A DNA stretch of 64,000 bases from Sphaerochaeta halotolerans (lineage in GTDB: Bacteria > Spirochaetota > Spirochaetia > Sphaerochaetales > Sphaerochaetaceae): assembly GCF_003429665.1 (NCBI RefSeq), contig NZ_QUWK01000003.1:1-64000 (forward strand), in the 5' to 3' direction. The notes beneath the pieces are model-generated. The model worked only from the letters and a program-made list of their open reading frames with translations. It did not search any database and was not told the DNA's origin. The translations under genes and the position numbers were made by a program. Numbering within the stretch: the first letter of the stretch is position 1; each line of letters begins with the position of its first letter. This document shows positions 4,261 through 9,851 of this stretch, piece by piece.

Positions 4261-4400
4261 TTGCGCTTTTCGGGCTAATCTACCCCAGTAAGTTGGGTCA
4301 TAATGGACAGATATGTGTCAAAATGAAACAAAAAGAGATAAAGTAGATGTGGAGAAAGGGACGAGTTGATTCAGAATCGCTACGTAGTAAGCTTATTTGG

Positions 4401-4424
4401 TTTCATTGCTGTTATATAATGAAA
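4401..4424 (+). promoter_or_regulatory. inverted repeat, possible activator (enhancer) site for hsp20
   Basis: TTTCATT (4401-4407) and AATGAAA (4418-4424) are perfect 7-bp arms, about 60-80 bases upstream of the sigma-54 promoter. That is the usual place for binding of a sigma-54 activator. It is AT-rich, so chance is possible. Confidence 0.35.
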
Positions 4425-4482
4425 TCGTATAAATTATTATATTAACGTAAATTAGCTATATTTCTAGATAATGGAAGATGAA

Positions 4483-4499
4483 TTGGCACGCTTTTTGCA
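4483..4499 (+). promoter_or_regulatory. sigma-54 (RpoN) promoter of hsp20
   Basis: TTGGCACGCTTTTTGCA matches the sigma-54 consensus TTGGCACG-N4-TTGCW at every fixed base, with the -24 GG and -12 GC dinucleotides 12 bases apart. The predicted start is near 4510, about 50 nt before the hsp20 ATG. No sigma-70 promoter of comparable quality was seen in the 360-base gap between argF and hsp20. Confidence 0.8.
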
Positions 4500-4560
4500 A
4501 AATTACAGATGAACCCCGAAAGGGATTGATGAAGAATATTATAGAACACGGAGGTGTACT

Positions 4561-4989
4561 ATGAAATCTTTAACAACAAGAAGGAATTATGATTTACCGG
4601 CATTGTCAGCATTTGACTCTCTGTTCAACGACATGCTTGGGGACTGGGGGGTGTATCCCTCGAGATTTCCGGCTGTAGATATTACCGAGAACGATGATGC
4701 CTACATCTTGGAAGCGGAACTTCCTGGCTATAAGCAGAGGGAAGTGAAGGTCAATATCGAGAAGCATGTCCTGAAACTGAGCTCTACAAAGGAAACCAAG
4801 AAGGAAGAGAAGGACAAGAAGCATCTTGTTTCTGAGCGCTACTATCAGAGCTTCGAGCGATCGTTCTCATTGCCTGAGGATGTGGATGAGGAGAAAATCT
4901 CTGGCGAGTTTGCCGACGGTATCCTTACATTGACCCTTCCAAAGAAGGAAGTTGCTAAACCCAAGGCAATTGAAGTTAAAATTAAATAA
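4561..4989 (+). CDS. hsp20: small heat-shock protein (Hsp20/alpha-crystallin family)
   Basis: This ATP-independent chaperone holds unfolded proteins until ClpB/DnaK can act on them. The 142-aa product has a short N-terminal arm, an alpha-crystallin domain from about residue 38 (PAVDITENDDAYILEAELPG) to the GEFADGILTLTLPK strand near residue 122, and a C-terminal IEVKIK tail resembling the I-x-I motif used in oligomer assembly. An AGGTG-type ribosome site precedes ATG 4561. It is monocistronic, flanked by a sigma-54 promoter and a strong terminator, which is unusual for this family and suggests control by a signal-specific activator rather than by a heat-shock sigma factor or HrcA. Confidence 0.93.
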   Translation: MKSLTTRRNYDLPALSAFDSLFNDMLGDWGVYPSRFPAVDITENDDAYILEAELPGYKQREVKVNIEKHVLKLSSTKETKKEEKDKKHLVSERYYQSFERSFSLPEDVDEEKISGEFADGILTLTLPKKEVAKPKAIEVKIK

Positions 4990-5013: not shown

Positions 5014-5045
5014 TGCAAGGCCCCGCAAGATGCGGGGCTTGTGCA
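5014..5045. terminator. shared convergent terminator between hsp20 and the M20 peptidase gene
   Basis: GCCCCGC (5020-5026) pairs with GCGGGGC (5032-5038), extended outward by TGCA/TGCA. It sits in the 59-base gap between two convergent genes and can serve both strands. T-runs are short on both sides. Confidence 0.65.
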
Positions 5046-6541: not shown

Positions 6542-6583
6542 ATGCAACAAGAAATTTCTACCAATAGTAGGAGAGCAGGGCGC

Positions 6584-7177
6584 ATGCCGAAAAAGATCGA
6601 TCATGAAGAGAGAAAGGAAAAGATTCTACAAACTGCACTGAAGGTCTTTGCAAGAGAAGGCTATCGTGATTCCAATCTCTCTCTGATAGCCACCGAATGT
6701 GGTGTTTCCCGTCCTACCATTTACCAATACTTCAAAGATAAGGAAGAGATTTACTATTATGCGGTGAAGCTGGTAACGGGAAGAATGTTCAACAAGTATG
6801 TTGCCTATGTTTGGTCGACCGACCAGGATTTGGTAAGCAGGATTACGACCATTTGTCTAGACATCATGCAAGAAGCAAACGAGCACGAAGGGGAATTGAC
6901 CAGTTTAGTAGATGTTATGCTCCAGATGAAGAAGGAGGGACGGGATTTCAATGAGATCATTCTCAGACGAACCGCCAAGCTCACCATCTTGTTCAAGCGC
7001 TTGCTTCGCATGGGGGTCAAGACAGGGGATATTGTTGACTGTGATGTGAATAAGGTCGCAGATCATCTTCTCATGTTGCTTGAATCATCCTGCTTCCAGG
7101 TTGCATTCTTGGATACGTTCGACATGCAACTCTCCAAGCAGCTGATCAGCACTTACCTCGATTTCTACAGGGCCTAG
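6584..7177 (+). CDS. TetR/AcrR family transcriptional regulator
   Basis: This is a one-component repressor with an N-terminal DNA-binding domain and a C-terminal ligand-binding domain. In the 197-aa product, the segment ILQTALKVFAREGYRDSNLS (res. ~14-33) and the helix-turn-helix GVSRPTIYQYFKDKEEIYYY (~40-59) are typical TetR features. ATG 6584 is preferred over ATG 6542 because AGGAG (6569-6573) lies 10 bases ahead. It is divergent from the M20 peptidase gene, and a palindrome overlaps both promoters. It probably represses itself and the peptidase. The ligand is unknown. Confidence 0.9.
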   Translation: MPKKIDHEERKEKILQTALKVFAREGYRDSNLSLIATECGVSRPTIYQYFKDKEEIYYYAVKLVTGRMFNKYVAYVWSTDQDLVSRITTICLDIMQEANEHEGELTSLVDVMLQMKKEGRDFNEIILRRTAKLTILFKRLLRMGVKTGDIVDCDVNKVADHLLMLLESSCFQVAFLDTFDMQLSKQLISTYLDFYRA

Positions 7178-7268
7178 CCGATACCCTGATTCGTCATTAT
7201 ATTTATCTACGTACAGGAGAAGACCCGAGAAGGGCCGGTTGCTTCATACCTGAAGGTGAGGAGTATCC

Positions 7269-9851
7269 ATGAATATAGACAAAATGACTATCAAGCTGCG
7301 TCAGGCAATCGGCGATGCCGATATGCTTGCCAATGAACATGGCAACGCAGAAATTACCACAGAACACCTTTTATTGGCTTTACTCAATCAGAAGGAAGGG
7401 TTGCTCACCCCGCTCCTTGAGCGTTTGGGGGTTCCCCCTGCCATGGTGAGTGAAAAATTGGGAAATCTGGTCAACAAACTTCCCAAGTCATATGGTGGTA
7501 ACGCACAACGGTCCCTATCTGCACAACTGGGGAACCAGCTTTATGAAGCAGACAAGATTGCTTCAGACTTCAAGGATCAATACTTGAGCGCAGAACACTT
7601 CCTGCTTGCTGTCTTGGAGGATGGCTCGGAGGCAAGCAAGGCACTCAAGTCCCTTGGTGTTACCAAGGACGCGCTTATGCAAGCATTGCAGACGATCCGA
7701 GGGAACCAGACGATCCAAAGTGAAGATCCTGAAAGCAGATATCAGGCATTGGAAAAGTACTGCAAGGATATGACCACCCTTGCCCGGCAGGGGAAGCTCG
7801 ATCCGGTCATCGGGCGTGATGAGGAAATTCGACGGGTCATGCAGGTGCTCTCCAGAAGGACCAAGAACAATCCCGTATTGATTGGAGAACCAGGAGTCGG
7901 AAAAACTGCAATTGTAGAAGGCCTTGCCTTACGTATTGCTTCCGAGGATGTCCCTGAGTCGCTGAAAAATAAGCAAATTCTCAGCTTGGACCTTGGAGCC
8001 TTAGTGGCAGGTGCCAAGTTCAGGGGAGAGTTTGAGGAACGGCTAAAAGCAGTGGTTAAGGAAGTGACTGCCAGTGAAGGCAGGATCATTCTGTTCATTG
8101 ACGAGTTGCATACCATTGTTGGGGCAGGGGCGAGTGAAGGGTCAACAGATGCCTCAAACCTGATCAAACCAGCTCTCTCCAGGGGTGAGTTGCATGCCAT
8201 CGGTGCGACTACCCTTGACGAATACCGGAAATATATTGAACCCGACAAAGCCTTGGAACGACGGTTTCAGCCGATATTCACCAAGGAGCCTTCGGTTGAA
8301 TCGACGATTGCCATTCTCAGGGGACTTAAAGAACGGTACGAAGTCCACCATGGCGTACGAATCAAGGATGAAGCCTTGGTTGCTGCAGCTACCCTGAGCA
8401 ACCGGTATATCACCAACCGGTTCCTCCCAGACAAGGCTATCGACTTGGTGGATGAGGCTGCTAGCCAGCTCAAGATGGAAATAGAGAGTCAGCCGGAAGA
8501 GTTGGATCAAATAGAGCGCAAGATCCTCCAGCTCAACATTGAGAAGCAGGCGCTTTCCAGGGAAACCGACAAGGCAAGCAAAGAGCGGTTGGAAAAACTC
8601 GAGCGTGAGCTGAGTGAGCTCCAGGGAACCCGTGATGCCATGCACTTGCAATGGGGCAATGAGCGGAACTCCATTGCCAGGCTAAGGGAGACAAAGGCAA
8701 AGCTTGAGCAGCTGAAGGCGGAAGAACAACGTGCTGAAAGAGAGGGCGATCTTGCAAAAGCTGCCCAGATTAAGCATGGGGAGATTCCCGAGCTGCTTAA
8801 ACAGATTGAAGATATGACTGAACAGCTTGCATCCGTGCAAGTTGAAGGAAAGCAGATGCTCCGAGAGGAAGTCAGTGAGGATGACATTGCTCGTATTGTC
8901 AGTAACTGGACAGGTGTGCCTGTGGCCAAAATGAAGGAGAGTGAGCTGCACAAGTATCTGAATCTTGAACAGACCCTCTCTAAGCAAGTCATAGGGCAGA
9001 AGCAGGCGATTGAGGCAGTAAGCAATGCAATCCGGCGAAACAAGGCAGGAATCGGGGATGAGAGAAAGCCCTTAGGGACCTTCCTGTTTGCAGGTCCCAC
9101 AGGAGTAGGAAAGACCTTGCTTGCCAAGGTACTTGCAGAATTTCTCTTTGATGATGAGAAAGCCCTTACCCGCATCGATATGAGTGAGTATATGGAGAAG
9201 TTCTCTGTCAGCAGATTGATTGGAGCGCCTCCAGGGTATGTGGGGTATGACCAAGGAGGGCAACTGACTGAGGTAGTTCGTAGGCGTCCCTATTCTGTAA
9301 TTCTTTTTGATGAGATTGAAAAAGCCCATCCCGATGTATTCAACGTGTTGCTACAATTGTTGGATGATGGCCGATTGACCGATGGGCAGGGAAGAGTGGT
9401 TGACTTTACCAATACCGTCATCATCATGACCAGTAATCTGGGAAGCCAGCAGTTGCTGAGTGCAGAGTCCCATGAGGAAGGTGTCCGCCTGGTTGGTGAG
9501 ATAATCCATCAATCCTTCAAACCGGAGTTTATCAATCGGCTTGATGAGATCATCATCTTCGAGCGATTGGGAGAGGAGCAGATTCGTAAGATTGTGGTTC
9601 TACAGCTTGAGCAACTTCAGGAGCGGTTGCAGAAACGTGGGTTCTTCTTGACTTGGGAAGATGAGGTACTTTCGTTGCTCTACAAGGAGGGCTATGATCC
9701 GGTCTTTGGAGCACGTCCGATTCGCCGCGCTGTGCAGCGACTTGTGGAGAACCCCTTGTCTGTGCAATTGCTGTCAGGTGATTTCGGCCCAGGCTCGAAG
9801 ATCTTGCTCACGCTTCAGGGTGATGAGGTGGTTGCCCGTAAGATTGACTAG
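7269..9851 (+). CDS. clpB: ATP-dependent disaggregase ClpB
   Basis: This Hsp100 AAA+ chaperone pulls proteins out of aggregates together with DnaK-DnaJ-GrpE and small heat-shock proteins. The 860-aa product has a Clp N-terminal double repeat (res. 1-~145), a first AAA+ module with Walker [10 protein letters not shown] (~206) and Walker [10 protein letters not shown], a long coiled M-domain (~400-530, rich in Glu/Lys) and a second AAA+ module with [10 protein letters not shown] (~609). The M-domain separates ClpB from ClpA/ClpC. A GAGGAG ribosome site precedes ATG 7269. No CIRCE element was seen upstream. The 3' end overlaps the convergent gene at 9808-10413 by 44 bases. Confidence 0.96.

Follow-up and report, generated by a model that had tools for sequence, protein, structure and literature searches.

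The small heat-shock gene hsp20 of Sphaerochaeta halotolerans is very probably transcribed by sigma-54 RNA polymerase and activated by an Rrp2-type regulator acting on upstream dyads, and the same regulator would co-control a second hsp20 gene and an RpoS-like sigma gene. The promoter, the dyads, their pairing at 40-43 bp and their near-exclusive link to two gene types are established by sequence comparison. The same holds for the regulator, with its class-wide presence and its synteny, and for the absence of the dyads from Borreliaceae through loss. The whole stretch of DNA that was analysed, 64,000 nucleotides in length, is referred to below as the window.

The hsp20 gene and its sigma-54 promoter

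The open reading frame at 4561-4989 encodes a protein of the HSP20 family, with an alpha-crystallin domain (PF00011) at an E value of 1.6e-25 and 89.6 bits, against a cut-off of 20.8. The gene and its flanking signals are arranged as follows.

4561-4989, + strand: hsp20, encoding a 142-residue small heat-shock protein (alpha-crystallin family; Pfam PF00011)
4484-4499, + strand: sigma-54 (RpoN) -24/-12 promoter TGGCACGCTTTTTGCA, an exact consensus match, kept class-wide in position and sequence
4510, + strand: predicted transcription start, 12 nt past the -12 GC, placed by sigma-54 geometry
4550-4554, + strand: Shine-Dalgarno sequence GGAGG in the leader, read directly, placed by the predicted fold in a small hairpin loop
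5020-5038, + strand: GC-rich hairpin GCCCCGC/GCGGGGC after hsp20, read directly, a possible terminator with only a short T run

The promoter TGGCACGCTTTTTGCA is a perfect match to TGGCACN5TTGCW and the sole one in the window. Its GG is located at 4485-4486 and its GC at 4497-4498, in agreement with the fixed spacing of the -24 and -12 elements. The predicted leader is 51 nt long, from about 4510 to the ATG at 4561. The original prediction, of an RpoN consensus about 50 nt ahead of the coding start of a small heat-shock gene, is thus borne out by the exact match, the Hsp20 reading frame downstream of it and the length of the predicted leader. The hairpin at 5020-5038 received no call in the terminator scan. 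Close downstream of hsp20, a TetR-family regulator gene and clpB are found (6542-9851), with a reverse-strand M20 peptidase gene between.

In the whole genome, the pattern TGGCAYN5TTGCW has 15 matches, compared to 2 for the reversed control. The second hsp20 gene also carries a perfect RpoN site. The genome holds one rpoN gene and five true sigma-54 enhancer-binding proteins (AAA+), the machinery to which the original prediction had pointed.

Two tandem RpoN sites elsewhere in the genome (G000:C2:75813 and 76054; L040:7814-7945 and 8055-8185) are each followed by a short non-coding stretch. Both stretches have AGAACAGAGCAACAnTTTTTT and CCTCC in common, ahead of a strong hairpin whose tail is rich in T, and they are possibly a pair of sigma-54-dependent small RNAs. 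They gave no match in Rfam and have no hsp20-type dyad upstream, and their promoter pattern found no match in IMG/VR.

Conservation of the promoter across Spirochaetia

An RpoN site with at most one mismatch is present at 86 of the 90 hsp20 loci of Spirochaetia, compared to 1.4% of dinucleotide shuffles. This recurrence in homologous upstream regions excludes chance as the source of the promoter, and by the same comparison the promoter is real and selected. The motif expected before hsp20 in related species is therefore present class-wide. Outside the genus, the site is found at 37 of 41 hsp20 loci. Within the genus, hsp20 orthologues share 65-92% identity.

Among 60 genomes ranging from the genus to the class, 56 have at least one Hsp20 homologue, and nearly every first hsp20 is preceded by an RpoN site (0-1 mismatches), in most cases 50-110 nt ahead of the ATG. 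The hsp20 genes without a site are mostly second members of tandem pairs. For named Sphaerochaetaceae and Spirochaetales records, scanned with a narrower Hsp20 alignment as the broad one was too diverse, the RpoN site is present in 48/48 and the dyad (see below) in 44/48. RpoN control of hsp20 is strongly supported by these patterns of conservation, together with the rpoN gene, the five AAA+ activators and the perfect site at the second hsp20.

Conventional heat-shock control, by CIRCE/HrcA or a sigma-32 promoter with the RpoN site secondary, is the usual pattern in other bacteria and is very improbable here: CIRCE (TTAGCACTC-N9-GAGTGCTAA) is absent from the window even with up to 3 mismatches allowed, the + strand ahead of hsp20 has no promoter of the sigma-70 type, and conservation of the RpoN site extends across the class.

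Control of hsp20 mainly after transcription, by an RNA thermometer in the 5′ leader, has some support in the window itself. The predicted fold of the leader and gene start (4510-4580) is unusually stable, at -19.3 kcal/mol (z -5.3), and in it a hairpin holds the ribosome site and the start codon is base-paired. However, the median z across 86 hsp20 leaders is only -0.5, the long helix is lost in orthologues of 92% identity, and there is no match to an Rfam thermometer. With the strong fold confined to the window, the thermometer was rejected as a general mechanism, and it is an unlikely candidate for the main control of hsp20.

The upstream dyad

A dyad with the class-wide form TGTGTCAnnnTGACACA, composed of half-sites TGTGTCA/TGACACA in a 17-bp layout, is located upstream of the RpoN site. 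The elements in the window are listed here, together with the inverted repeat that had been proposed earlier.

4314-4330, + strand: candidate enhancer dyad TGTGTCAAAATGAAACA, one mismatch to TGKGTCANNNTGACMCA; the class-wide dyad
4294-4310, + strand: weaker possible dyad copy TGGGTCATAATGGACAG, 20 bp from the main copy, read directly; weak alone
4357-4373, + strand: degenerate possible dyad partner AGGGACGAGTTGATTCA at 43 bp spacing, read directly; 5 mismatches
4401-4424, no strand assigned: 7-bp inverted repeat, present, not conserved and probably incidental

The dyad is found with at most two mismatches at 76 of 90 hsp20 loci, compared to 0.3% of shuffles. By sequence and conservation, its distance to the RpoN site across these loci is 92-204 nt, with a median of 153; in the window it lies about 150-170 nt upstream of the promoter. 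Pairs of dyads at 40-43 bp spacing, or about four helical turns, were observed 73 times, with about 0.05 expected. The dyad at 4314-4330 is the likely enhancer of hsp20.

The second copy in the window is degenerate, which counts against the Rrp2-type reading. The stretch at 4357-4373 is kept among close relatives, and because of its 5 mismatches its assignment as the partner dyad is tentative. Spacings of 19-20 bp, as between the main copy and 4294-4310, recur among relatives.

The original prediction had placed the enhancer at the 7-bp repeat TTTCATT/AATGAAA (4401-4407/4418-4424). The repeat does exist, as one among 23 inverted repeats in 361 nt. It is absent even from orthologues of 92% identity, so an enhancer role is unsupported and was rejected. 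The conserved enhancer-like element at 4314-4330 sits about 90 nt upstream of it.

Many one-component regulators bind palindromes of similar size, and the dyad could in principle be the site of a dimeric repressor or activator of the ordinary kind, with no connection to sigma-54. Its position speaks against this, as 92-204 nt upstream of the RpoN site is typical for a sigma-54 enhancer and ill suited to a classical activator or repressor. Moreover, the dyad recurs together with RpoN sites at two unrelated types of genes, hsp20 and rpoS-like, and in its 17-bp layout it is similar to NtrC-type sites. Such an ordinary regulator is very improbable.

A predicted regulon of hsp20 and an RpoS-like sigma gene

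In this genome, the dyad and a perfect RpoN site occur together at both hsp20 genes and at one other gene, which encodes an RpoS-like sigma factor and where the dyad has 2 mismatches. At 30 orthologous RpoS-like loci, an RpoN site with at most one mismatch is always present and dyads are found at 29, usually near -164 and -124 from the RpoN site.

A scan for dyad pairs that ignored gene identity found 47 loci in 258 Spirochaetia genomes and 0 in the reversed control; the scan is strict and recovers a fraction of the real sites, which makes it a test of specificity rather than completeness. An hsp20 gene follows at 11 of these loci and an RpoS-like gene at 32, for a total of 43; among these 43, an RpoN site with no more than one mismatch is present at 40. 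The remaining four are L300, L313 (contig edge, RpoN site present), L326 and L327. The dyad pairs at the last two (G194:C32 and C150) are near-identical, lack an RpoN site, hsp20 or sigma gene in their vicinity, and are perhaps part of a repeated element.

The sigma gene scores 289 bits, below the NCBIfam cut-off of 378.7 for the proteobacterial RpoS equivalog. It is called RpoS-like because RpoS is its best family by E value, and it is tied to borrelial rpoS by position. At L259, L260, L261, L289 and other loci, groES is divergent from the RpoS-like gene, and the dyads therefore sit in the interval that separates the sigma gene from a chaperonin gene.

The probable activator

The Rrp2-type regulator gene of this genome is located at G000:C8:34609-35970 (L043:3610-4968), with a PAS histidine kinase gene just upstream. 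The protein consists of a receiver domain, a sigma-54 AAA+ domain and a Fis-type HTH, as in NtrC. It shares 56% identity over its whole length with Rrp2 of Borreliaceae, and a common gene order (murG-cvpA-holB-HK-RR, with the sigma gene a few kb off) is found in Sphaerochaeta, other families and Borreliaceae. By identity and synteny, it is an orthologue of Rrp2. The loop contacting sigma-54 reads GSFTGA in the Sphaerochaeta regulator and GAFTGA in Borreliaceae and in G045; the divergent Sphaerochaeta loop counts against the Rrp2-type reading.

The regulator would bind the dyads, an assignment made by elimination and linkage. It is strongly matched in 246 of 258 class genomes. RpoN could instead drive hsp20 with another of the five enhancer-binding proteins in the genome on the dyads (the NtrC-like C47 protein, PspF or the divergent C11 protein), and regulators of the PspF type are also active on envelope and stress genes. 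Several observations make another activator improbable. The HTH region of the Rrp2-type regulator matches at an E value of 1e-28 or better, dropping to 1e-20 at the next protein. The dyad-bearing sigma gene is linked to the Rrp2-type gene. The elimination of other activators rests on one assembly, G045, whose single true enhancer-binding protein is the Rrp2-type regulator and in which hsp20 and the sigma gene still carry both dyads and RpoN sites; the rpoN frame is broken near its end in this assembly.

PspF was rejected as the activator, as the dyad is absent from its own pspA promoters in G000. Its gene is flanked by a pspA gene on either side; both of these have an RpoN-like site, and neither has a dyad of the hsp20 type (L039:1079-3988; G000:C2). 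On the same contig, a PrpR-type activator gene adjoins a pdxA-like gene with a perfect RpoN site (L041:1924-5066; G000:C2:92992).

Proposed mechanism

In the preferred reading, that of an Rrp2-type regulator acting on the dyads, sigma-54 RNA polymerase would transcribe hsp20 from the promoter at 4484-4499. The NtrC-type response regulator orthologous to Borrelia Rrp2, most likely in its phosphorylated form, would bind the dyad at 4314-4330 and open the promoter through ATP hydrolysis, presumably with looping of the DNA. The same regulator would act likewise on the second hsp20 and the RpoS-like sigma gene, and one signal, probably a proteostasis or internal stress signal, would therefore raise the small chaperones and a general-stress sigma factor together. 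The original prediction that RpoN ties this chaperone to a specific activator is supported by the conserved upstream dyad and the one class-wide response regulator.

Comparison with the Borrelia Rrp2-RpoN-RpoS pathway

The closest known system is the HK2-Rrp2-RpoN-RpoS pathway of Borrelia burgdorferi (PMC1976401, PMC12472547). Both systems have the orthologous regulator in a syntenic position, an adjoining cytoplasmic PAS-type kinase and a sigma-54 promoter on a nearby rpoS gene. The signal for HK2 is reported to be unknown (PMC12472547). In Borreliaceae, rpoS has no dyads and Rrp2 acts independently of an enhancer, whereas in Sphaerochaeta and most of the class both types of targets have dyads, often paired.

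The Borreliaceae genomes compared here were assigned to that family by chromosomes of 0.90-0.96 Mb, 26-30% GC and gene order. The RpoN site of rpoS has 0-1 mismatches in five of the six genes located; the start of the sixth (L273) was wrongly set and its site is unscored. A dyad was found at none of the located rpoS genes. For hsp20, four of five genes have neither RpoN site nor dyad, and the fifth keeps TGGTATGGTTTTTGCA, with one mismatch, and no dyad. The rpoN gene of one Borreliaceae genome (L256; G053:C1:472400) reads as a pseudogene with several in-frame stops, while its rpoS has a perfect RpoN site. A broken rpoN was dropped as the reason for the loss of the hsp20 site in G053, as this loss is seen across Borreliaceae.

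Rrp2 activates Borrelia rpoS independently of an enhancer, with no high-affinity site within 238 bp, and it bound no DNA near rpoS in assays (PMC1976401). This counts against binding of the dyads by the regulator. The absence of a dyad from Borreliaceae rpoS qualifies this counter-evidence, and loss of the enhancers would explain how Rrp2 acts there without one.

The Borreliaceae kept the rpoS promoter and lost the dyads, and at hsp20 mostly both, which suggests that the Lyme RpoN-RpoS switch was pared down from an older circuit joining chaperone and sigma genes. On balance, we favor the view that an ancient proteostasis circuit, once common to the class, has been cut back to the Rrp2-RpoN-RpoS pathway in the Lyme and relapsing-fever spirochaetes. 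In that circuit, Rrp2 on paired dyads about 40 bp apart would have raised small heat-shock proteins and the RpoS-like sigma factor together, and Borreliaceae would have lost the enhancers and most hsp20 targets.

Relation to other systems and implications

Sigma-54 promoters, NtrC-type enhancers and Rrp2 are already known. The system shares with the general NtrC/ZraR class a regulator with receiver, AAA+ and Fis-type HTH domains and 17-bp palindromes, often paired, 90-200 nt upstream of a -24/-12 promoter. It differs in its half-site, TGTGTCA/TGACACA, and in its targets: the genes for a small chaperone and an RpoS-like sigma factor take the place of the nitrogen or zinc/envelope genes of that class. 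The sigma-54-associated genes described in the available text of a survey include IbpA (COG0071) and other chaperones (PMC12316311); in that text, unlike here, the chaperone cluster is enriched in Planctomycetota and Bacteroidota, and no activator or enhancer is named. The EbpA/EbpB-RpoN regulons of Leptospira likewise combine RpoN with enhancer-binding proteins in a spirochaete, but Leptospira belongs to a different class, the named targets are lipoproteins and amtB, and RpoS is reported to be absent (PMC5243855, PMC12655853). The literature searched, with most subscription journals outside it, contained no earlier report of RpoN with Hsp20 in spirochaetes, or of hsp20 and an RpoS-like sigma gene forming an Rrp2-type regulon with dyads throughout the class.

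Placement of a small heat-shock gene under sigma-54 is the rule across a whole bacterial class. The analysis also names a regulon and a candidate enhancer for a regulator whose Borrelia version is known for lacking one. If this assignment is correct, the ancestral job of Rrp2 would have been tied to protein quality control, with specific binding sites, and the signal and DNA binding of Rrp2 would be open to study in Sphaerochaeta, which is harmless and free-living.
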